DNA of 64,000 bases from Halothermothrix sp. Lineage in GTDB: Bacteria > Bacillota > Halanaerobiia > DY22613. Below, one piece after another: positions 1,579 through 16,987 of this stretch; positions within the stretch are counted from its first letter, which is position 1, and the number at the start of each line of letters is the position of its first letter. The stretch spans positions 186,001 to 250,000 of the forward strand of contig JAENYK010000001.1 of NCBI GenBank assembly GCA_016841825.1, read 5' to 3'. A program made the position numbers and the translations under genes. The notes under the pieces were generated by a model. It ran no database searches, had not been told where the DNA came from, and saw only the letters and a list, made by a program, of their open reading frames with translations.

Positions 1579-4041
1579 CTAACTTAACTGATAGTCTTCA
1601 ATCTTGTGGGCATATTCGCGCGAAATCTCTGCCGCAACTTCTGGATCATCAGCTTCTGTATATACGTGGAATAAGGGCTCATCTCCATCTGGATAGATTA
1701 AAGTCCAACCATGGTCATGGTGAATGCGCACTCCATCTACTAGTTCTACTTCAGCAGCATCCATATTCTCAATGATCTGACGCATGATTCTTCCCTTCTC
1801 CTCCCATGCGCAGTCAATATCTTCAGCGCAGGTATAAAAAGCCGGAATCGTCTCAACCAGAGACCCCAGACTTAACTCTTGACTAGATAGAAAATCCATG
1901 ATCAATACCAGAGCTGCTATCCCATCTCCGTATGGATAGAAGAATGGTTCACCCTGAACAGCCGCTTCAGCATAGAAGTTACGCATTACAGTTGGTCGAT
2001 CACTGCGAGTTCGCATAACCTCAACATTATACTCATCAGCCAGTTCCTCAATATATGCCGGAGCATTTACCGGTACAACCAATTTTCTCAATCCCTGGTC
2101 TATCATAACCATAGTCAAAACAATCTGTAATTCTTCATCTGTAACCACTCTACCATCCTCTGTCAACAGGGTTAGATTCTCCCCATTATGATCCAACACT
2201 ACACCAAAATCGAAGTGATTTTCAACTATCATCTGCCCAATTCGATTCGTAGTTGCCAATCTTTCTGCATAGCTGAGCGGGCGCTTACCTTTACCATAAT
2301 TATAAGTAGATTCCACATCACAGCCCAATCGATCTAAAAGTACCGATAAAATTGGACTCAAACTATCATACTCATAATCTAGCACCAGTTGATAGCGTTT
2401 CCGTCTAATCTCATCCCGATTGACCAAACTAATTAAACCCTCGAGATAACTTTCACCCATCTGTGGAGCATAATAGTATTCACCGACATAGTCCTCTTCT
2501 GCCCGATATAAATCTTCACCAAAAAATCTCTTTTCAATCTCCCTTTCCATACTTCTGTCAATCATCAAACCACTATTATCAATAAATTCAATAATTACCT
2601 CTTCAGGATTGTCATAACAGCAGCGAATATGCATTCCGCCTTCGGCTTCCATTGCTGCAATACTGTATCTGGCAGTAGGTGAAGGAACTTCTCCCAAATC
2701 CACTACTTTTATCCCTGCAGATAAGAGCCCTGCCACTACAGATTTTTGTAACATCCTGGAGATAGCAAAATTATCTGAACTGACCGCAATCTCTCCACCT
2801 CTCCGAAAAGAAGAGCCATAGGCAGTCGCCAACTTGGCACAAAACTCAGGTGTCATCTCCACATTAGCCAATCCGTGTACTCCATATGTATTAAATAATC
2901 GCTTACGCCATTTTGGAGCCCAGACCAGACTGCGGTTTAAAATAGTAAAGTCTTCTACTTCCTTCATTGGCCATACTTTGACTCCAGTCTGAATCGTTGC
3001 TTTACGACCTACAGTGCTATCTTTACCCAGCACTGCTCCTTCAAAAATTCGAACATCATCTTTAACCTTCACTCCATCACATAGAAAACCAGCTCTGACT
3101 TCAGCATTATTCCCCAAATATACACCTTGCCAGAGAATACTTCTTTTTAATGAACAACCATTTGCAATTATCGTATGATCCCCCACAACAACGGCTTCCA
3201 GATAACTACCTGGTTTAATCGTGACATTCTCACCAATGTACACAGGTGTAGCCAACTGAACATTCTCCGGAATCTCTGTATTCTCACCTACCCAGATACC
3301 TTCTTCAATCTGCTGACCCCGAATATATACATCTGCCTGGCCATTCAAAATATCGAACTGGGTTTGCATATATTGTTCCACATCACCAATATCAGACCAA
3401 TAGCCGCTGCTGGTATAACCGTATAAAGGTTCTCCATCCTGCATCAACAATGGGAATAAATCTTTGCTAAAATCAAATTTGACTCCCCGATCAAAATATT
3501 CAAAAATATCTGGCTCAAGGATATAAATACCTGTATTCACCAGATCACTAAATACTTCACCCCAGGATGGCTTCTCTAAAAATCGAGTGATCTCACCAGT
3601 ATCATCGGTCATCACTACCCCAAATTCCAATGGAACCTGTTGCTGACTTAATACCAGAGTAGCCAGTCCACCTTTCTCCTGATGATACTTAATAGCATCT
3701 TGCAGGTTAATATCAGTCAATGCATCTCCACTGATAACAACAAATGTCTCATTCAAAAACTCGGTAGCATTCCGTACACTACCGGCTGTCCCCAGAGGAT
3801 CTTCCTCTAAAAAATATTGTAAGTTTACACCCCATCTACTTCCATTGCCAAAATAATCTTTAATCATCTCAGGCAAATAGCAGGTTGTTACTCCAATATC
3901 TGTAATTCCGTGTTCACGTAATAATTCAATACTGTATTCCATAACTGGTTTGTTCAAAATAGGAACTAAAGGTTTTGGTAGATCACATGTCAGTGGACGT
4001 AATCTGGTCCCCTGACCACCTGCCATGATAATTGCTTTCAT
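1579..4041 (-). CDS. Mannose-1-phosphate guanylyltransferase-like / degenerate phosphomannomutase fusion
   Basis: This is an 820-aa two-part protein. Residues 1-235 are a nucleotidyltransferase domain with the GGxGTRLRPLT signature at 8-18. Residues ~245-370 are left-handed beta-helix hexapeptide repeats. Residues ~385-810 follow the phosphohexomutase fold. The mutase half looks inactive: the phosphoserine loop reads GGMHIRCCYDNP (468-479) with no TASHNP-type serine, and the metal loop reads DHNGEN instead of DGDADR. The ATG follows AGGAGAGG by 5 nt. It would make an NDP-sugar from a hexose-1-phosphate. Its place between the glucoamylase and GT4 genes suggests supply of an activated sugar for glucan or surface polymer synthesis; substrate and nucleotide are not readable from sequence. 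Confidence 0.85.
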   Translation of the reverse strand: MKAIIMAGGQGTRLRPLTCDLPKPLVPILNKPVMEYSIELLREHGITDIGVTTCYLPEMIKDYFGNGSRWGVNLQYFLEEDPLGTAGSVRNATEFLNETFVVISGDALTDINLQDAIKYHQEKGGLATLVLSQQQVPLEFGVVMTDDTGEITRFLEKPSWGEVFSDLVNTGIYILEPDIFEYFDRGVKFDFSKDLFPLLMQDGEPLYGYTSSGYWSDIGDVEQYMQTQFDILNGQADVYIRGQQIEEGIWVGENTEIPENVQLATPVYIGENVTIKPGSYLEAVVVGDHTIIANGCSLKRSILWQGVYLGNNAEVRAGFLCDGVKVKDDVRIFEGAVLGKDSTVGRKATIQTGVKVWPMKEVEDFTILNRSLVWAPKWRKRLFNTYGVHGLANVEMTPEFCAKLATAYGSSFRRGGEIAVSSDNFAISRMLQKSVVAGLLSAGIKVVDLGEVPSPTARYSIAAMEAEGGMHIRCCYDNPEEVIIEFIDNSGLMIDRSMEREIEKRFFGEDLYRAEEDYVGEYYYAPQMGESYLEGLISLVNRDEIRRKRYQLVLDYEYDSLSPILSVLLDRLGCDVESTYNYGKGKRPLSYAERLATTNRIGQMIVENHFDFGVVLDHNGENLTLLTEDGRVVTDEELQIVLTMVMIDQGLRKLVVPVNAPAYIEELADEYNVEVMRTRSDRPTVMRNFYAEAAVQGEPFFYPYGDGIAALVLIMDFLSSQELSLGSLVETIPAFYTCAEDIDCAWEEKGRIMRQIIENMDAAEVELVDGVRIHHDHGWTLIYPDGDEPLFHVYTEADDPEVAAEISREYAHKIEDYQLS

Positions 4042-4086: not shown

Positions 4087-5349
4087 TTATACCTGTTGAT
4101 AGCGGTAATATACTTTATCCTCAACATCCAGCATCTCAGTGGGAGTACCTATAGATTCTGCACCCCACTCACTATCCAGATACTCCTGATAGATTCTTTC
4201 ATAAACCTGTGTGATTTTTTTAGCTATACCAGGCCAGTTATATTTTTCTCTTGCCTTTGTATAACCATTCCGTCTGATCTTCTCCCGTAATTGAGGTTCT
4301 CTTAAAACTCTCAAAATACCCTGGGCCAGTTCATGGGCAGACCCCGGAAGCACCTTAATTCCATCTATACCATCTTCAACTATACCACTCAATCCACCCA
4401 CCTCTGTAACCAGAACCGGAACTTTGGCAGCCATCGCTTCTAAAGCCACAATTCCAAAAGGTTCATACAGACTTGGAAAGACCGCCAGATCACATAGTCG
4501 ATATAGATGATCTCTGGTTTCATCATCTATGAAACCAGTAAAATAGCACCGATCAGCAACTCCCATTACTTCTGCTTGATGCTTCAATTCGCCTAATTTG
4601 GGTCCTTTACCCGCAATAACAAACTTGGTTTTCGGGTGGTGAGCTAAAACCTCTGGAATAGCATCAATTAAGACCTGCACACCTTTCTCCTGAACCAATC
4701 TCCCTACAAAATAGATGATCTTCTCATCCGAATGAGCATATTTTCCTCTAAAACCCACTGGTACATCCGTTGAAAAATCAATCATCTCCACACCATTTTC
4801 TACTATATCAATCTTATCCTGTGGAACCTGGAACAGATATTGAATCTCCCGATTCATATATTCACTACAGATAATCACTCTCCAGGCCTCATAACAAGAT
4901 AGCCATTCCAGATCATTAATATAACGTTGTAAATCATTGTGAATTCCATAATTACGACCATGTTCTGTAGCGTGAATTGTCATTACTAATGGAATTTTTA
5001 ACATATGTTTCAAAGAACGTGCTGCCATAATTACCAACCAGTCGTGTCCATGAATTAAATCAAAACTCCGGCCTTCCAGTAGCAGACGCCCTGCTGCCTG
5101 AATCATTTCAAAGTTAGTCTGAAGAATAGATGAGGTAAAATCTGTAGCATTAATAAATAGTGGATTAACCCTAATAATTTCAACACCATTCTTTATCTCC
5201 AGAGTAGGTGCACCATTAGCCATCTGGGTAATCACTGTCACCTCATGACCCTCTTCTATTAAGGCTTCAGACAGAGGATGGACATGTCTGGCCAATCCTC
5301 CAATCTGTAAAGGTGGATATTCAGGTGAAAAAATTAGAATCCGCAACAA
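4087..5349 (-). CDS. Glycosyltransferase family 4, glycogen-synthase-like
   Basis: This 420-aa GT-B protein has an N-terminal Rossmann half beginning RILIFSPEYPP, a GGL loop at 17-19 and a C-terminal Glycos_transf_1 half with the E-x7-E motif EPFGIVALE (296-304). The glycogen/starch synthase KTGGL motif appears as QIGGL, so the lysine of classical GT5 enzymes is absent, as expected for GT4. It starts at tandem TTG codons 6 nt after GGGGAGG. The divergent neighbour is a GH57 branching enzyme, which supports a chain-elongating alpha-glucan synthase. A sucrose-synthase-like or surface-polymer role cannot be excluded. Confidence 0.8.
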   Translation of the reverse strand: MLRILIFSPEYPPLQIGGLARHVHPLSEALIEEGHEVTVITQMANGAPTLEIKNGVEIIRVNPLFINATDFTSSILQTNFEMIQAAGRLLLEGRSFDLIHGHDWLVIMAARSLKHMLKIPLVMTIHATEHGRNYGIHNDLQRYINDLEWLSCYEAWRVIICSEYMNREIQYLFQVPQDKIDIVENGVEMIDFSTDVPVGFRGKYAHSDEKIIYFVGRLVQEKGVQVLIDAIPEVLAHHPKTKFVIAGKGPKLGELKHQAEVMGVADRCYFTGFIDDETRDHLYRLCDLAVFPSLYEPFGIVALEAMAAKVPVLVTEVGGLSGIVEDGIDGIKVLPGSAHELAQGILRVLREPQLREKIRRNGYTKAREKYNWPGIAKKITQVYERIYQEYLDSEWGAESIGTPTEMLDVEDKVYYRYQQV

Positions 5350-5534: not shown

Positions 5535-7118
5535 TTGACACAGGGTTATCTCAATTTAGTATTACATGCTCATCTTCCCTTCGTTAGACACCCCGACGAT
5601 TCAGATCCACTTGAAGAAGATTGGCTGCATGAAGCAATAACGGAGACATATCTTCCATTATTGAAGATGATGTCTAATCTAGAAGCTGAAGGTGTACCTT
5701 TTCCTTTAACACTGGTTCTAACACCGACTTTATTGAATATGCTCAATGATCCACTTTTACAGACTAGATATACAAGGCGTTTAGAACATTTAATCGAACT
5801 GGCAGAAAAGGAAGTAAAAAGAACCCAGGATCAACCAGAGTTCTTACACGTTGCTCAGATGTATCTCAATTCATTCAAAGAAGCTTACTATTTATTCTGT
5901 AAGAAATACCAGAAAAATATCATTCAGGGATTTAAACATTTTCAAGATATTGGCCAGATCGAGATAATCACCTGTGCCGCAACTCATGGTTATCTGCCGT
6001 TAATGCTCCATCGCCAGGCTATCAAAGCACAAATCTCCCAGGGTGTCAAAACTTATCAACACTTTTTCGGAAGACGTCCTAAAGGTCTCTGGTTACCTGA
6101 ATGCGGCTTTAAAGACGGAATAGATGATATTCTCCAGGAAGAGGGTATCCAATTCTGTTTTGTAGACACACATTGCATCTTATATGCAGTACCCCGTCCA
6201 CGTTACGGAGTTAACACCCCAATCTATTCCCCTGCAGGGGTAGCCTTTTTTGGACGGGATGTGGAGACTTCTCATCAGGTGTGGAGTGCCCGGGAGGGAT
6301 ATCCTGGTGATTTTGACTATCGGGAATTCTATCGGGATATTGGGTATGACCTAGACTATAACTATATCAGACCGTACCTCCATTCTACCGGAATCAGAAA
6401 AATGACAGGTATCAAATATTACCGGATTACAGGTAAGTCAAATCACAAAAAAGTTTATAAACCTGAATGGGCCAGAGAAAAAGCGGCACTCCATGCTGCA
6501 AATTTTATCTTCAACCGTCAGAAACAGATCGAATACCTGAATAATTTTATGCAGCAACCACCAATCCTAACTGCACCTTATGATGCAGAATTGTTTGGTC
6601 ATTGGTGGTACGAGGGTCCTCAATTTCTGGAATATGTCCTGAAAAAACTTCATTATGATCAGCATCAGATTAGCATGATTACCCCAGCAAAATATCTTCA
6701 GCTATATCCAAAACAACAGGTAGCAAAACCTGCTGAAGGCAGTTGGGGACATGAAGGTTACCATGAAGTATGGTTAAATGGAACCAATGATTGGATTTAT
6801 CCATACCTTCATCAGGCCAATGAACGAATGATTAAACTGGCCAGTGAAAAGAATAATCCGTCTCTCTTAGAGCGCAGGGTATTAAACCAGGCTGCCAGAG
6901 AACTTCTGCTTGCACAGAGTAGTGACTGGGCTTTCATTATGAAAGCGGGAACTATGGTTGATTATGCAATTAGGCGAACCAAAACCCATCTAAATCACTT
7001 TACTTCTCTTATTGAAATGTTACAAAATGGACAAATTATCGAATCAGAACTATACAGTTATGAGGCAGAAGACAATCTTTTCCCAGAAATGGACTACAAA
7101 ATATACCAGAACGCTTAA
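5535..7118 (+). CDS. GH57 1,4-alpha-glucan branching enzyme (DUF1957 type)
   Basis: This 527-aa protein begins with the GH57 signature LNLVLHAHLPFVRHP. The nucleophile is E189 in WLPECGF and the general acid/base is D350 in the YDAELFGHWWYEG motif; both lie where they do in characterised archaeal and Thermus GH57 branching enzymes. The DUF1957 helical C-terminal domain follows. It would transfer alpha-1,4 segments to form alpha-1,6 branches in glycogen. It starts at TTG (the only in-frame start near AGGAGTG at 5521-5527; the nearby GTG hits a stop at once). It is divergent from the GT4 gene across a 185-bp promoter region and is followed after 38 nt by the DUF4912 gene. Confidence 0.9.
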   Translation: MTQGYLNLVLHAHLPFVRHPDDSDPLEEDWLHEAITETYLPLLKMMSNLEAEGVPFPLTLVLTPTLLNMLNDPLLQTRYTRRLEHLIELAEKEVKRTQDQPEFLHVAQMYLNSFKEAYYLFCKKYQKNIIQGFKHFQDIGQIEIITCAATHGYLPLMLHRQAIKAQISQGVKTYQHFFGRRPKGLWLPECGFKDGIDDILQEEGIQFCFVDTHCILYAVPRPRYGVNTPIYSPAGVAFFGRDVETSHQVWSAREGYPGDFDYREFYRDIGYDLDYNYIRPYLHSTGIRKMTGIKYYRITGKSNHKKVYKPEWAREKAALHAANFIFNRQKQIEYLNNFMQQPPILTAPYDAELFGHWWYEGPQFLEYVLKKLHYDQHQISMITPAKYLQLYPKQQVAKPAEGSWGHEGYHEVWLNGTNDWIYPYLHQANERMIKLASEKNNPSLLERRVLNQAARELLLAQSSDWAFIMKAGTMVDYAIRRTKTHLNHFTSLIEMLQNGQIIESELYSYEAEDNLFPEMDYKIYQNA

Positions 7119-7156: not shown

Positions 7157-8146
7157 GTGATTCCATGGCTTATTTTATCGGTCATCGTTATTTTGACTTT
7201 CTTCTTTTTCATAACTAGACCTGAAAAGGGTGAGCGTGAAATAACACTCAAACCCCGTCGTCATCTGGAACCTCGAACAGACACAGAGTTTGCTGAAGAA
7301 TCAGATCTGGATAAACAGATTGAAATGGATCTCAGCGAACATACAAAACACGATAATCAAAACAGTGAGAATAAAACTCAGCGGGAAGATCTACGAATCA
7401 GAAATCTTGCTGATCCCAGATTAACCAGAACTGAACATGCTGGATTGCATAGCAGAGGGATGGAGATTGAAACAATGCGACTCAAAGGCAATGTCTATGA
7501 TTTGAAAATTCAACTGAAAAATGGTGATGTTAAAAAGACTTCAGAGGACTTATCTGGGGCTTCAAAAGCAGATATCGAGGCAGCTCTTGACATACAACCT
7601 CAGGTCAAAGCACCTCTAACTATTTTGGAATATGATCCGGAGATAGCTCCAGATCATGTGCTAAGAATTGGCAATAAACCTACTCAGATACCAGGTCACG
7701 AAATGCCAATCCAGATGATCTTATCTCCTATGCTTATTGCTCTGGCTAAAGACCCTTACTGGGTACACCTATCCTGGGTGTTGCCTGAAGATTGCCCTGC
7801 AGTCAATTTAGAGATCAAGGTCAAAAACCTGTCACAACAGGCAGAATTTTATCAAAAGGTTAACTCCGATTCCCGAAGTTGGTATATCCAGCTTAATCAG
7901 CCAGATCAAAAATTCGTCTTTGAATTAGGATTTTGGGATGAAAACGGCTCTTTTCGGACAGTCCTTTGCTCTAATGAAATCAAAACACCTACCAATCGGC
8001 CATCCAATATTATCGACAGTCAGTGGATGGTTATTGATGAATTCTACCAGAGAAAGATGATTATCAGCTCAGAAGGATCTCCTGAGTTTATCATGGAAAG
8101 ATTGGGAGGGTCAGAGCAATTTGTTAGTCAATATAAAACTGACTAA
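7157..8146 (+). CDS. Membrane-anchored DUF4912 protein
   Basis: This 329-aa protein has one N-terminal membrane helix (residues 2-21), then a highly charged, presumably disordered linker (~22-110). The C-terminal domain (~180-315) matches DUF4912, with DPYWVHLSWVLPEDCP at 199-214. It starts at GTG after CAGGAGGTGACC. The function of DUF4912 is not established. It shares an operon with the branching enzyme, so a role in organising glucan metabolism at the membrane is possible, but this is inference from context only. Confidence 0.7.
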   Translation: MIPWLILSVIVILTFFFFITRPEKGEREITLKPRRHLEPRTDTEFAEESDLDKQIEMDLSEHTKHDNQNSENKTQREDLRIRNLADPRLTRTEHAGLHSRGMEIETMRLKGNVYDLKIQLKNGDVKKTSEDLSGASKADIEAALDIQPQVKAPLTILEYDPEIAPDHVLRIGNKPTQIPGHEMPIQMILSPMLIALAKDPYWVHLSWVLPEDCPAVNLEIKVKNLSQQAEFYQKVNSDSRSWYIQLNQPDQKFVFELGFWDENGSFRTVLCSNEIKTPTNRPSNIIDSQWMVIDEFYQRKMIISSEGSPEFIMERLGGSEQFVSQYKTD

Positions 8147-10513: not shown

Positions 10514-12481
10514 TCAAGATATTAAGTCTTTTATTCTAAGGATCTCTCCAATACTCCAGGCCTGTGCATAGCAGCCCCGGTGATGATACGGGCGATTACC
10601 ATCAAAAATCTCACTAACTTGACCAATAGCTCCATCACTTTCCAGATGTGCCAATAGTGGCTGCAGTAATTTTGATATCTTTTCTTTCACATCAGTGCCA
10701 CGTGCATTCTCCACATACCATAATGCACCCAAGTATGGACCCATTAACCAACTCCAGACTGTCCCCTGATGATATGCCGCATCCCGCTGATATTGATCAC
10801 CACCATAATTTCCATGATATTTTAAATCTTTATCAGAAAGGCTACGCAGCCCCACTGGAGTCAGAAGATGTTCTTTAATTACTCCCAATACTCTGATACC
10901 GTCCGTAACATCCAATAATGGAAAAGGTAAGCTTAGAGCAAAAATCTGATTAGGGCGAATCGCTGAGTCTTTTCCCATATCTGTTACACAATCATACAGA
11001 TAGCCGCCCGCTTCATTCCAAAATACATCTCTAAAGTTTTTCAGAACCTTATCAGCTAACTCCTCATACTCCTCACTTGTTTCATCCTCACCGACCAGTT
11101 GACAAAAGAAGGAGATAATCTTTAGCGCATTATACCATAAGGCATTGATCTCTACAGCCTTTCCCTGGCGAGGAGTGACAACCCAGTCTCCAACCATGGC
11201 ATCCATCCAGGTTAACTGAACCCCCTCTTCACCCTGTGTTAATAAATAATCATCTGTCATTTTGATTCCCCAGAGGGTTCCTGTTTGATGTCTTAGAATC
11301 ATCTGCTTTAACAGCGAAAGATGTTCTTTAACAAATTCCAGGTCAACAGTCTTTAGAAAGTACTGATAGAATGCTATAAAAAACCACAAAGTAGCATCAA
11401 CAGTGTTATATTCAGGATCTTCTCCTTCATCAGGAAATCGATTGGGAATTAAACCATAATTAGAATATCTGATAAAGGTTTCTAAAATCTCTTTACCTTC
11501 TTTATACCTACCAGTAGCTAGAGTCAATCCTGGCAAAGCGATCATACTATCTCTCCCCCAATCGGTAAACCAGGGATAACCCGCTATCACTGTAGCTGTA
11601 TCAGATGACTCCCGATAAACCAAAAACTGATCAGCAGCTATCACTAGACGACGATTTTCCCAATCCTCTGCACCCGATAGCTGACAGATATGCATTATTC
11701 TCTCCTGTTCCTTTAAGTAAATCTGGTCTAAATCTGGCTCTTCCCGATACTTATTCAGGGTCGAAAAGACCACACCTACTCTCTGCCCAACCTGAAGATT
11801 AATGGTTAAATTACCCGGAACATAGTGGTCCTCAATTGAATTTAAACCACGATATTTTTCCAGGGGATAAAACAGATTTTTCTGCCAATGTGGGTTTGAA
11901 TTCCACTCACCTGTGCTGGTCAAATAAATAGGTGCTGCACCTGCAAAAGCAATAAAACTATACTGCATTCCCTGAACAGCCATATCCCATGGCCAGTCCG
12001 CAGCAGTCGTATGACCATGATAGTCACGATAGTTTAAAAAAGGCGTCAACTGTAAAGTCATAGTTCCTGAACCATCCACATATGTATATTCAACTATGGT
12101 GGTATTCTCCCCATAGCACATATAGACCTTCTTTTCCAGCAAACAACCATCCAACTCGTATGTGAATGTAGGATGGAAACTATAACTAAACTCAGCCAGA
12201 TAATTAAATCCCTGGGGGTACACACTATTCTCATAGATATTAGTTGCCAGCAAATATTCCCGACCAGAAATCAATACCTCTTCATCAAGTTTACCGACCA
12301 GCAGCAGTCGCTGCAGTGGTGGTTTAAGAGCAGCAATCAATAGACCGTGATACCCCCTGGTATTAGCTCCAACTAAAGAAGAACCCGCAAAACCACCAAC
12401 TCCATTAGTAATCAACCATTCCCGCCGGGAGAACTCATTTTCATTTCGTAATATTGAACCAGTGAGGCGAATTCGTTCCAT
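10514..12481 (-). CDS. Glycogen debranching enzyme (amylo-alpha-1,6-glucosidase, GH133)
   Basis: This 655-aa protein has the bacterial GDE layout. The N-terminal domain (~1-260) opens with EWLITNGVGGFAGSSL and TRGYHGLL. The (alpha/alpha)6 amylo-1,6-glucosidase domain (~280-650) carries WFTDWGRDSMIALPG, RFPDEGEDPEYNTVDATLWF and YHQGTVWSWLMGPYLGAL. It removes alpha-1,6-linked glucosyl residues from glycogen limit dextrins and so completes the breakdown side of this glycogen locus. The ATG follows AAGGAGG by 9 nt. A terminator-like hairpin upstream (12530-12558) separates it from the CBM gene, so it probably has its own promoter in the ~30-bp gap or is read by partial read-through. Confidence 0.9.
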   Translation of the reverse strand: MERIRLTGSILRNENEFSRREWLITNGVGGFAGSSLVGANTRGYHGLLIAALKPPLQRLLLVGKLDEEVLISGREYLLATNIYENSVYPQGFNYLAEFSYSFHPTFTYELDGCLLEKKVYMCYGENTTIVEYTYVDGSGTMTLQLTPFLNYRDYHGHTTAADWPWDMAVQGMQYSFIAFAGAAPIYLTSTGEWNSNPHWQKNLFYPLEKYRGLNSIEDHYVPGNLTINLQVGQRVGVVFSTLNKYREEPDLDQIYLKEQERIMHICQLSGAEDWENRRLVIAADQFLVYRESSDTATVIAGYPWFTDWGRDSMIALPGLTLATGRYKEGKEILETFIRYSNYGLIPNRFPDEGEDPEYNTVDATLWFFIAFYQYFLKTVDLEFVKEHLSLLKQMILRHQTGTLWGIKMTDDYLLTQGEEGVQLTWMDAMVGDWVVTPRQGKAVEINALWYNALKIISFFCQLVGEDETSEEYEELADKVLKNFRDVFWNEAGGYLYDCVTDMGKDSAIRPNQIFALSLPFPLLDVTDGIRVLGVIKEHLLTPVGLRSLSDKDLKYHGNYGGDQYQRDAAYHQGTVWSWLMGPYLGALWYVENARGTDVKEKISKLLQPLLAHLESDGAIGQVSEIFDGNRPYHHRGCYAQAWSIGEILRIKDLIS

Positions 12482-12529
12482 CCAATTGTACCTCCTTATT
12501 TAATCCATAATCAGCAGTTAGTATGTAAA

Positions 12530-12558
12530 AGAGCCTACCGGGTCTCCCGATAGACTCT
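12530..12558 (-). terminator. Likely terminator after the CBM gene
   Basis: The hairpin pairs completely only on the minus-strand RNA, where two U·G wobbles replace C/A mismatches of the plus strand. It is followed by TTTACATAC. A second small hairpin (GCGTAG/CTACGC, 12562-12575) precedes it. Confidence 0.55.
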
Positions 12559-12585
12559 GTTCGCGTAGAACTACGCCTTTAATTT

Positions 12586-12924
12586 TTAGTAGAGTTTACC
12601 ATTATGAATTTCAAAAGACCAGTTACGACCACTATTGTTATCCCAGTTTTCAGCATTGTCTTTAAAACAGAAATTAAATCGACTCTCTTCCTCAATTGCA
12701 AGATTTGATACAAAACTATTACCTTGACGATTCATCCTAATATCCATTACATTATCCCAGATCTGATTCTTGCCAAAACCCGCATGAAGGTATACTTCCT
12801 GTGCACCAGACTTTGCCAAAAGACCGTCGTACTTAATCTCTAACCTTTGACCGGCAATAATTGGAGTAGGTTGAACACTAATCCCCTGATCCATATGAGG
12901 ATCCAACTGCTGACCATTTTTCAT
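12586..12924 (-). CDS. Stand-alone starch-binding module protein (CBM25/CBM53-like)
   Basis: This protein of ~112 aa consists of a single beta-sandwich module. The C-terminal FKDNAENWDNNSGRNWSF segment (ORF residues ~89-106) is the hallmark of CBM25/CBM53 starch-binding domains. No catalytic domain and no signal peptide are present, so it should be cytoplasmic. I place the start at the ATG at 12924, ten nt after GGAGG, rather than the ATG at 12933, which would leave almost no spacing. It may tether or recruit enzymes to glycogen granules; this is inference from the module and from its neighbour, the debranching enzyme. Confidence 0.75.
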   Translation of the reverse strand: MKNGQQLDPHMDQGISVQPTPIIAGQRLEIKYDGLLAKSGAQEVYLHAGFGKNQIWDNVMDIRMNRQGNSFVSNLAIEEESRFNFCFKDNAENWDNNSGRNWSFEIHNGKLY

Positions 12925-12997
12925 AAAACCCATTCCTCCTTTTTAATGTTTTTGTGTTCCTACTATCTTAATATTTGAAAGAAGAATGGGTATTATA

Positions 12998-13939
12998 CTA
13001 AGTGTCAATTGAATCTTTTTTACTTTTTGCCCTGACAATTATCAGTAATACAAGACCCACAACAAAGATACCAAACCAGATAAATAAACGGTCTATAATC
13101 AGTGGAGCTTCTGCATCCATAGAAATTCTTAAATACGGAATAGTCGCAAACTCATCTGCATCTGCCTCAACGTTTAATACTTCTTCCTGAGTCTGACCTG
13201 CCGGAACTAACATATCTATTACTCTTGGAGAAAAACTGCTTACAGCTCCTCCGAATATCCAATCATCACCGGTCTCTCCGACATCCCGATAATAATTCGG
13301 CCCAAAAGAATCAAAGGCACCAACCAGAAGATAAAATTTGGCATCACTCAAATCTCCCAGAACTGATTTCTCAATCTCAATACGAATCGTCTTATCTTCA
13401 AGAGTTACAACTGCAGCCTCTAAATCAAAGGGATCTTCTGGGTCACTCCAGATAGATCTTTCTGCCTCTTCCCGATCTTCAGGTCGGAATACTTTAACCC
13501 ACCAACCAGTTATATGTAACATTACATCCCATGGAGCCTTCTGGTCAAATTTTACTTTAGCTCCTGGTCGAAATAGCTGACCACTACCTCCAGATTTATT
13601 ATCAAAATACAGTTCAATTAATGGATGACTGAAGTTATACTTAGAATTCCAGGGATTCCGGACCTCGTCAAAGACGAATTCCAGAGTATAATCACTCCCA
13701 TCTTCTACAATGGAAAAATAAGTAATATCAAATAACCCCTTATGTGGTTCAAATTGTTTATATTGAGGATATGTATAATATCCCGGACCCCAATCATCTC
13801 CTACAGGATCTACCATCTCAAATAAAACCTTTGGCATTACATCAATCTCATCAGCCTGAACGGTAAAACTCAGAAAAAGTAGAATAGAGATAATCGATAG
13901 AAGAATACTAATATGCACATCTTTGAGTATTTTTTTCAC
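12998..13939 (-). CDS. Membrane-anchored glucodextranase C-terminal-like protein 1
   Basis: This 313-aa protein has an N-terminal signal sequence (~8-29), a glucodextranase C-terminal-type domain (~38-245) and a C-terminal membrane helix (~283-303) with a basic tail. Domain landmarks are DPVGDDWGPGYYTYP, FSHPLIELYFDN and WWVKVF. The module occurs as a C-terminal unit of amylopullulanases and glucodextranases; here it has no catalytic partner. Topology suggests it is exposed outside the cell membrane and held by its tail. It starts at GTG 7 nt after GGGGAGG. A close relative lies directly upstream (14031-14987). Confidence 0.72.
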   Translation of the reverse strand: MKKILKDVHISILLSIISILLFLSFTVQADEIDVMPKVLFEMVDPVGDDWGPGYYTYPQYKQFEPHKGLFDITYFSIVEDGSDYTLEFVFDEVRNPWNSKYNFSHPLIELYFDNKSGGSGQLFRPGAKVKFDQKAPWDVMLHITGWWVKVFRPEDREEAERSIWSDPEDPFDLEAAVVTLEDKTIRIEIEKSVLGDLSDAKFYLLVGAFDSFGPNYYRDVGETGDDWIFGGAVSSFSPRVIDMLVPAGQTQEEVLNVEADADEFATIPYLRISMDAEAPLIIDRLFIWFGIFVVGLVLLIIVRAKSKKDSIDT

Positions 13940-14030: not shown

Positions 14031-14987
14031 TCATTGACTACGAGTAAAGACGCCTCGTTTATGCCAGCCTAACCAAATCAACAGACAGATGATAAACGAA
14101 ACAAGATAAATAATAACTTTACGAACCGGATTGGGTTTTGAGACCGGCTCAACTACCGCCCGAACATGATTTGCAGGGTCATAGGAACCTAAAATTTTTT
14201 GCTGACTCCTCCCATCTGGTACTACCATATCAATTACATTGGGATTATAACCAGAGCCATCTCCACCTCCAAAATACCATTCACTAATCCCCTGTTCTAC
14301 AATTCGATAATGATCTGGTCCAAACCCATCATGACCACCCACCAACAGATAGTAAGAACCATCCTGCAGATCATCCAGATTAGTCCATTCACTAATAGGT
14401 AAAATTATCTGAATCGTTTTTTGATCTTCAAGAACTTTCGCTTCTCCTTCTGAATAAAAATCTGGTTCTTGAGTCACAGAATCATCACAATCAAAAAGAT
14501 AAATACCCCAACCTGTAACCTTTATCAGAGTATCCCAGGATGCCCGTGGACTAAATACAACCCGTGCCCCCGGATAAAAAGTATGGCGTTCTCCACCTGG
14601 ACGATGATCAATATAGATCTCAATTAATTGGTGACTAAATCCATTTGACCCTTTCCAGGGGTTTGTTATTTGACCAAAGGTAATCTGCAAACAGATCTGA
14701 TCTTCCCTTCCCAAAACCTTAAATCTTTCAATATCCAATAGTCCTTGATATGGAGCAAACTGGCTATTAGTAGGATACAGATAAGTTCCGGGTCCAAAAT
14801 CATCACCCTGAGGATCTTTCATATCCAGGATGGTGGTCCAGACAACTTCTCCTTCGCTTCTCATCTGTTCCTGTTCTTCTATTTCATTAGAATTATCATT
14901 TACAGCTTCACCTGTTGCCTGAATAGATAGAGTCAAACCCCAGATTAGGACAAAGATCAGGAGAATAATCCAGAATCTGCGTTTCAT
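14031..14987 (-). CDS. Membrane-anchored glucodextranase C-terminal-like protein 2
   Basis: This ~318-aa paralogue of the next gene has the same order: signal sequence (~5-27), glucodextranase-C-like domain with DPQGDDFGPGTYLYP and FSHQLIEIYIDHRPGG, and a C-terminal transmembrane helix ending in a basic tail. I prefer the ATG at 14987 (7 nt after AAGGTG) to the GTG codons just before it. It lies 45 nt downstream of hprK in the transcription direction and is probably cotranscribed with its twin. The tandem pair suggests gene duplication. A carbohydrate-binding or envelope-anchoring role is inferred from the module only. Confidence 0.72.
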   Translation of the reverse strand: MKRRFWIILLIFVLIWGLTLSIQATGEAVNDNSNEIEEQEQMRSEGEVVWTTILDMKDPQGDDFGPGTYLYPTNSQFAPYQGLLDIERFKVLGREDQICLQITFGQITNPWKGSNGFSHQLIEIYIDHRPGGERHTFYPGARVVFSPRASWDTLIKVTGWGIYLFDCDDSVTQEPDFYSEGEAKVLEDQKTIQIILPISEWTNLDDLQDGSYYLLVGGHDGFGPDHYRIVEQGISEWYFGGGDGSGYNPNVIDMVVPDGRSQQKILGSYDPANHVRAVVEPVSKPNPVRKVIIYLVSFIICLLIWLGWHKRGVFTRSQ

Positions 14988-15032
14988 CACCACTCACCTT
15001 CCAACCGAATTTTCTCCTTATTCGCGGGATTG

Positions 15033-16033: not shown

Positions 16034-16987
16034 CTATTTTAAAGCAACAGCTATAGCACCAAGAACTCCTACATCAGATCCCAACTTAGAAAAGGTAATC
16101 TCACATAACTTGCGTGGTGCCTCCAATGCCCGTTCTTCAACAGTCTGCAATATTCGATCAATAAATAGTTCCCCTGCCTTAGTTACACCACCACCCAGAA
16201 CAATCTTTTCGGGATTAAAAATATTAATCATATTTGCAATACCAATTCCAATATAGTTAGCAACTTTATCGACAATTTCCAGGGCTACCCGATCACCTTC
16301 CTGAGCAGCTCTGGTGACAACAGAGCCATCTATATCCTCAATCTTCTCAACCATCTCTCCTATTAGAGTATCAACTCCCCGTTCCACTGCTTCACGTCCA
16401 TAGCGTCCCAGAGCAGTACCTGAAGCCAGTGCTTCCAGACAACCACGATTTCCACATCCACAGACTGGCCCATCTGCCATAATAGTATGATGTCCGATCT
16501 CTCCAGCACTCTCACTAAATCCATGCAGTATCTGATTATTGATAATTACCCCACCACCAATACCAGTACTGATCGTCATATATATCATATTAGAACTACC
16601 TTTACCCGCACCAAAAGCATGTTCTGCAAGGGCAGCAGCATTGGCATCATTCTCTAACAAAACTGGTAATCCTAAAGCATCTGACATCATTTTAACGATT
16701 GGTACATTGTTCCATTTAAGATTAGGAGTAAAGAGAACAATTCCTTCTTTAATATTTAACGGTCCCGGAGAGCCTACTCCGATTCGGAGAACATCATCTT
16801 TTGAGACCTGTGCTTCATTCAAAACTTGCTCCACGGTGGTATTAATCCGTCTAACCACCTGCTCTGCCGGTTCATTAGCACCGGTTTCCACCCGTACTCT
16901 CTGTAGAATCTGCCCCTCTAGATCGGCCAGGGCGGTCAGAATCTTCGTACCACCTAAGTCCACACCAATTACATACTTCTTACCCAT
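16034..16987 (-). CDS. ROK-family glucokinase
   Basis: This 317-aa kinase has the phosphate-1 motif DLGGTKI near the N-terminus, ENDANAAALAE in the sugar site and the ROK zinc motif CGCGNRGCLEA. These mark a glucokinase of the ROK (repressor/ORF/kinase) family without a DNA-binding domain. It would convert glucose from glucoamylase and debranching activity into glucose-6-phosphate. The ATG follows GAGGAGG by 7 nt. It precedes hprK by 50 nt on the same strand. Other hexose specificities exist in ROK proteins but the glycogen context favours glucose. Confidence 0.9.
   Translation of the reverse strand: MGKKYVIGVDLGGTKILTALADLEGQILQRVRVETGANEPAEQVVRRINTTVEQVLNEAQVSKDDVLRIGVGSPGPLNIKEGIVLFTPNLKWNNVPIVKMMSDALGLPVLLENDANAAALAEHAFGAGKGSSNMIYMTISTGIGGGVIINNQILHGFSESAGEIGHHTIMADGPVCGCGNRGCLEALASGTALGRYGREAVERGVDTLIGEMVEKIEDIDGSVVTRAAQEGDRVALEIVDKVANYIGIGIANMINIFNPEKIVLGGGVTKAGELFIDRILQTVEERALEAPRKLCEITFSKLGSDVGVLGAIAVALK

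Follow-up and report, generated by a model that had tools for sequence, protein, structure and literature searches.

A lone CBM53 module encoded in the genome of a Halothermothrix sp. probably binds alpha-glucan inside the cell, as a soluble protein that acts in trans in glycogen synthesis by GH57 and GT4 enzymes. It lies within a stretch of 64,000 nucleotides, analysed as a whole and hereafter called the window, and the evidence comprises the gene itself, a predicted beta-sandwich, conserved residues, the lack of an export signal, linkage to glycogen genes, and co-occurrence with a branching enzyme across genomes. The module is real, conserved, and more general than a preliminary description of this DNA had supposed, and its function is what we infer. 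The gene and its most conserved part, with residues numbered on the 112-residue protein (start 12924), are as follows.

12586 to 12924, minus strand: stand-alone CBM53 gene, 112 amino acids plus stop, preceded by the RBS AAGGAGG (Pfam CBM53, 36.2 bits)
12619 to 12678, minus strand: most conserved block, residues 83–102 (FNFCFKDNAENWDNNSGRNW), with site-I-like Cys86, Trp94, Asn96, Asn101 and Trp102

The first-ATG ORF spans 12586–12933 on the minus strand, and its ATG at 12933 would give an alternative protein of 115 amino acids. The second ATG, at 12924, which the preliminary description had implied, is the better start, because AAGGAGG is well spaced for this ATG alone (10 nt) and nearly abuts the one at 12933. 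An in-frame TAA ends 9 nt upstream of the ATG at 12933, and the codons in between include no start; a longer, exported form of the protein, which would have spoken against the preliminary reading, therefore does not exist. The module had been described as encoded alone, without a signal peptide, and beside a glycogen debranching gene, and the sequence bears out each of these points: the 112 residues hold one CBM53 domain, as stand-alone genes do across many genomes, the longer start is blocked, and the next gene, 104 bp away, is GH133 (GDE_N and GDE_C). A hydrophobic N-terminal 12-mer was found in 0 of 78 collected homologues, window included, by a crude test at start codons that were picked by a simple RBS score, a choice which influences this tally. 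Neither an export signal nor a fused catalytic domain, the features of a secreted-amylase module, was found for the window protein, and with no signal and no longer start that identity is ruled out.

The Pfam CBM53 (PF16760) score of the window protein exceeds the cut-off of 27.6 bits, and the CBM25 (PF03423) cut-off is not reached (14.7 vs 27.3 bits). At E ≤ 1, these two families alone were listed by Pfam, with no match to CBM21 or CBM48, and NCBIfam gave no family at the same threshold. In the 5.08 Mb of the window's own genome, no further CBM53 was found besides the window gene (E ≤ 0.001), and a CBM25 family search gave no match anywhere, controls included. Among the members of alignment A1 (50 of the 78 collected sequences), 50/50 matched CBM53, 47/50 matched CBM25 (E ≤ 0.01), and 1/50 matched CBM48, weakly (E 0.0014). 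An AlphaFold2 model (mean pLDDT 86.8) consists mostly of beta strands, consistent with a beta-sandwich. Foldseek with this model placed the CBM25 structure 2c3v eighth (E 3e-3, TMt 0.63), outranked by fibronectin-III domains and with nothing below E 1e-3, and the top row of VIA-align was the N-terminal region of BoGH13ASus (Z 10.7, 96 aligned, 2.6 Å). The matches to the predicted structure are thus Ig-like and CBM folds, none decisively ahead.

Seven positions are invariant across the 50 sequences of A1. Over all 78 sequences, window included, the residues of interest are retained in 73 (His47), 77 (Trp56), 77 (Cys86), 77 (Trp94), 77 (Asn96), 76 (Asn101) and 74 (Trp102). In an alignment with 2c3v, the counterparts of His47, Trp56 and Trp94 are His26, Trp34 and Trp74, which we take to be ligand contacts. 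A family profile built from the same 50 of 78 sequences matched, among solved structures, 2laa (5.7e-9), 2lab (5.4e-8) and 2c3v (8e-6) best, and then human PTG (E 0.0026), where the block Cys...WDNNxGxN accounts for most of the match; the PTG match consists of two weak pieces, mainly site I, and is no proof of kinship. In it, Cys86, Trp94, Asn96 and Asn101 align with PTG Cys235, Trp246, Asn248 and Asn253, the PTG residues having been assigned to the alignment by spacing. In the available part of PMC9582199, these four are among the contacts of PTG carbohydrate site I, and site II is the primary carbohydrate site. The near-invariance of Cys86 would be explained by this correspondence, because the site I contact Cys235 aligns there. 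An affinity of the window protein for alpha-glucan is accordingly predicted from conserved residues.

Matches were found in 25 of 61 genomes (the own genome and 60 relatives), and profile matches in 182 of the 398 genomes of a phylum sample, nine of them weak (E 1e-15 to 1e-6; G080, G161, G163, G232, G271, G287, G349, G370 and G421); these nine may be modules inside other proteins. Named genomes contributed a further 38 loci (among them those of Desulfotomaculum-type bacteria, Moorella, one Armatimonadetes MAG and one Actinobacteria MAG); the homologues there were seeded by an exact peptide pattern, which favours close relatives, and some loci are near-identical (three Moorella). The 78 collected ORFs, window included, are 87–167 amino acids long at the chosen starts, and the open frames of 150 tallied phylum match rows are 104–245 amino acids long, with a median of 132. 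The nearest homologue (G001) is 77% identical, with a dN/dS of 0.09 at a dS of 1.5, which is near saturation, and over eight pairs, this one included, dN/dS is 0.03–0.14; the CBM53 gene is under purifying selection. Since the open frames are short, selection is purifying, and the spread is wide, the family is a protein in its own right.

Additional copies occur in some genomes. G031 and G033 each carry four extra tandem copies, apart from the copy in the glycogen cluster. Such sets of four tandem CBM53 genes, away from glycogen genes, are those at L095:8583-10507 and L096:7244-8802, with a ClpC-type ATPase gene and a class II tRNA synthetase gene adjoining the set in L095. Four loci (L067, L068, L069 and L070) hold divergent homologues of 154–155 amino acids with a conserved basic C-terminal tail, the L069 copy adjoining an HTH/S24-type gene. 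In G012, a second, diverged copy (L084:8571-8924, minus strand) lies between CBM53 and GH133 and is probably a local duplication. In a gene tree, 12 of 14 off-cluster copies fall together, apart from the rest, in a group given no support value and with a support of 0 at the node joining all 14, and the label "cluster" in this tree takes in L078, L079 and L081, loci that lack a GT4, GH57 or mutase-fusion gene in their vicinity; the separate grouping in this rough tree is a hint only.

The genes around the module in the window, by coordinate, are as follows.

1579 to 4041, minus strand: nucleotidyltransferase-phosphoglucomutase fusion
4087 to 5349, minus strand: GT4-type, glycogen-synthase-like glycosyltransferase (TIGR02149 150 bits, below the cut-off of 302)
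5535 to 7118, plus strand: GH57 branching enzyme with BE_C domain (PF03065, PF09210)
7157 to 8146, plus strand: DUF4912 protein, modelled with an N-terminal helix, a low-confidence linker and a fibronectin-III-like beta sandwich
10514 to 12481, minus strand: GH133 amylo-alpha-1,6-glucosidase (glycogen debranching), downstream of the module (PF06202, PF12439; TIGR01561 502 bits, cut-off 364)
12490 to 12585, minus strand: gap between CBM53 and GH133, in which UUUU comes directly after a 13-bp hairpin (whole gap: MFE -28.7 kcal/mol, z -3.48)
12998 to 13939, minus strand: Glucodextran_C protein, upstream neighbour (PF09985, 199 bits)
14031 to 14993, minus strand: second Glucodextran_C protein (PF09985, 211 bits)
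16034 to 16987, minus strand: ROK glucokinase, in the same strand run (TIGR00744 278 bits, cut-off 260)

The module sits in a minus-strand run with gaps of 15–136 bp, which reads, from upstream to downstream, BshB1-, BshA- and DUF624-like genes, ROK glucokinase, HprK, the two Glucodextran_C genes, CBM53, GH133, a TPR protein and a patatin-like protein; the BshB1-, BshA-, DUF624-like and patatin-like names are what we take these neighbours to be. Outside the run follow the GH57 and DUF4912 genes on the opposite strand, and then GT4 and the fusion, the latter a likely supplier of NDP-glucose. The 13-bp stem is absent from the consensus list of terminators, and the hairpin is a possible terminator or attenuator, so GH133 may be partly separately transcribed. 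Promoter-like sites showed no excess (4 found vs a shuffle mean of 4.9). By inspection, the Glucodextran_C protein at 12998–13939 has a signal-peptide-like N-terminus and a C-terminal membrane segment, and both such proteins appear to be exported and anchored in the membrane at the C-terminus, with no second Pfam domain over its cut-off.

To see whether the DUF4912 protein could be a second CBM, it was modelled from an alignment of the window sequence and 22 of 33 candidates. The top rows of the structure search were generic (Z about 10), with no CBM among the 50 rows listed, and a profile search against solved structures gave no convincing relative (best E 0.41). In the model, the N-terminal helix is likely a membrane anchor, and the protein is a possible membrane-anchored partner of the GH57 branching enzyme. 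DUF4912 occurs in 24/61 and 191/398 genomes, the 24 being the same 24 that carry the branching enzyme. One mention of DUF4912 was found in the literature, in a cotton callus paper.

Tracking the module with GH57 and GH133 genes across genomes, as had been proposed for it, gave a clear answer for GH57 and a weak one for GH133. Over the 61 genomes, module and GH57 branching enzyme occur together in 23, the module alone in 2, the enzyme alone in 1, and neither in 35; over the 398 phylum genomes, the corresponding numbers are 162, 20, 24 and 192, so that 162/182 carriers have the enzyme (phi 0.78; the statistics given here ignore shared ancestry). Counted by family label, both occur in 62, the module alone in 7, the enzyme alone in 8 and neither in 68, the last being approximate since the 145 labels include some from outside the 398-genome sample. 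After removal of the nine weak matches, the enzyme is present in 160/173 carriers (hand count). The two genes lie within 8 kb of each other in 20 of the 23 genomes with both, own included, against 0.2 expected, and further apart in G009, G059 and G060. GH133 occurs in just 5/61 and 50/398 genomes, and in 41/182 module genomes vs 9/216 others (phi 0.28), which rules out a partnership specific to GH133. What stands from the preliminary description across many genomes is therefore a stand-alone module without an export signal that is tied to glycogen metabolism; GH133 is its local neighbour and not its general partner.

Of 70 other loci, short flanks kept, 48 have a GT4, GH57 or nucleotidyltransferase-mutase gene within 8 kb of the module (27/38 named-genome loci and 21/32 loci of relatives), and 22 have none, some of these having short flanks and some being extra copies. 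The GT4 glycogen-synthase-like gene lies within 350 bp in 21/38 named-genome loci, and GT4 is a likely partner of the module in the Desulfotomaculum-type clusters, in which GT4 and module genes are adjacent. A GT5 profile matched 46/61 genomes at 2.3e-80 or better, the best match in the own genome being at E 9e-20, and in neither this genome nor G001 does any GT5 synthase match fall below E 1e-20. Because the own genome lacks a strong GT5 match, GT4 is the best candidate synthase there, and glycogen synthesis in this organism may, judging by sequence, proceed through it. In the sections of PMC11046441 available, GT4 of archaeal glycogen metabolism clusters with GH57, GH133 and others, and its role is said to need clarification; GlgA-named GT4 enzymes that coexist with GlgE may produce maltose 1-phosphate instead (PMC11046441), a caution that applies equally to the GT4 of the window.

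The excerpts of PMC6243121 describe GH13 branching enzymes as generally carrying an N-terminal CBM48. On the window's GH57 branching enzyme and GT4 protein, no CBM was found by Pfam (E ≤ 1e-5), and since these differ in this from the GH13 enzymes, the free module most likely supplies chain binding in trans. His47, Trp56, Cys86, Trp94, Asn96 and Asn101 would form a site that grips the alpha-1,4-glucan chains of glycogen, and the free CBM53 would hold or prime glucan at the growing glycogen particle and help synthase and branching enzyme to work there. Glycogen binding, the enzyme contacted and the effect on synthesis are each what this scheme predicts. A more ambitious version, in which the protein is a dedicated bacterial glycogen-targeting factor that recruits synthase and branching enzyme as a counterpart of PTG or PTST, with PTG site-I chemistry, is put forward only tentatively; an adaptor of this kind, as the preliminary description had suggested, would have to bind glycogen and a glycogen enzyme at the same time. 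Were a free module of this kind, found in 182/398 phylum genomes and linked to the GH57 branching enzyme, to act in trans, it would account for the hold that enzymes lacking a CBM of their own have on their polymer, and would offer a small, easily tested system for the start and growth of the bacterial glycogen particle, in clusters whose glycogen synthase may be a GT4 enzyme.

Other roles for a lone binding domain were weighed against this one. The AMPK carbohydrate-binding part is thought to sense the glycogen state in animals, and the window protein, a single binding domain without a catalytic part, could likewise read the glycogen or maltodextrin state and regulate an enzyme or regulator, with HprK and glucokinase genes in its own strand run, paralogues by unrelated genes that could serve other outputs, and the divergent L069 copy beside its HTH/S24-type gene. 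We regard such a sensor as unlikely, since biosynthetic enzymes are the commonest neighbours, and HprK lies within 8 kb in just 10/32 relative and 0/38 named-genome loci, absences that depend, as do those of Glucodextran_C and DUF4912, on the identity thresholds used against the window's proteins (looser cut-offs label DUF4912 in many more loci). It is less probable again that the protein is soluble and buffers maltodextrin or carries primers, holding short linear glucans for GT4 at initiation instead of binding mature glycogen. Such a role would fit the closeness of GT4 in the named-genome loci and the weak GT5 matches in the own genome and G001, and is opposed by the association with the branching enzyme, which is also strong.

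Export by a non-classical route, with the protein binding starch at the surface together with the apparently exported Glucodextran_C proteins, appears very improbable. Glucodextran_C genes lie within 8 kb in 19/32 relative loci, 18 of these within 250 bp, the solved CBM25 modules derive from amylases, and L099 has a hydrophobic stretch 5' of its chosen start, with poorly scored start codons, which makes export of that copy conceivable; against this stand the upstream stop codon in the window, the tally of N-termini given above, and the 38 named-genome loci, in which Glucodextran_C was undetected at the threshold used and GT4 is the usual neighbour. That so short a single-domain gene is a chance module, or a fragment left by a decayed amylase, is scarcely credible given seven invariant positions and the number of genomes that carry the family, and the low dN/dS in all eight pairs, a sign of purifying selection, rules out a relic. 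Phage or plasmid cargo was also ruled out, with no tblastn match in a phage or plasmid collection (E 1e-5). The reading we retain is that of a free CBM53 protein serving glycogen synthesis inside the cell.

Non-catalytic proteins that bind glycogen or starch and organise the enzymes are known mainly from animals and plants. Among the literature matches listed (titles and abstract openings), none reported a free-standing CBM53 or CBM25 of bacteria with a link to glycogen, and the words CBM53, CBM25, CBM48 and stand-alone are absent from the first 300,000 of the 445,374 characters of a 2024 review of prokaryotic alpha-glucan enzymes (PMC11046441). The preliminary description had taken CBM25/53-like modules to sit normally on secreted amylases, which does not hold for CBM53: in the excerpts of PMC6243121, the family counted 133 sequences in CAZy in 2018, mostly in starch synthase III, with no structure, and starch synthase III usually has three CBM53 modules fused to the synthase. 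The window protein shares with that enzyme the Pfam family and a tie to intracellular glucan synthesis, and differs from it in being one module encoded as a separate gene, with GT4 and GH57 as neighbours.

Closest by sequence among solved structures are amylase modules, the CBM25 of a Bacillus halodurans amylase (2c3v), with which the His/Trp/Trp set is aligned, and those of a Beta/alpha-amylase (2laa, 2lab); unlike these, the window protein falls below the CBM25 cut-off and lacks both a catalytic domain and an export signal. PTG (PPP1R3C), the glycogen-targeting subunit of PP1, is a non-catalytic glycogen binder, as the window protein is predicted to be, but it is eukaryotic, belongs to CBM21 and has PP1-docking regions, and the resemblance in sequence may reflect analogy or very distant kinship. 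The plant proteins PTST2, PTST3 and FLO6 are likewise non-catalytic CBM proteins, of starch synthesis (PMC6243121, in part), and are of the CBM48 family, to which the window protein has no match. If our reading is right, the window protein would act like PTG or PTST while belonging to neither.
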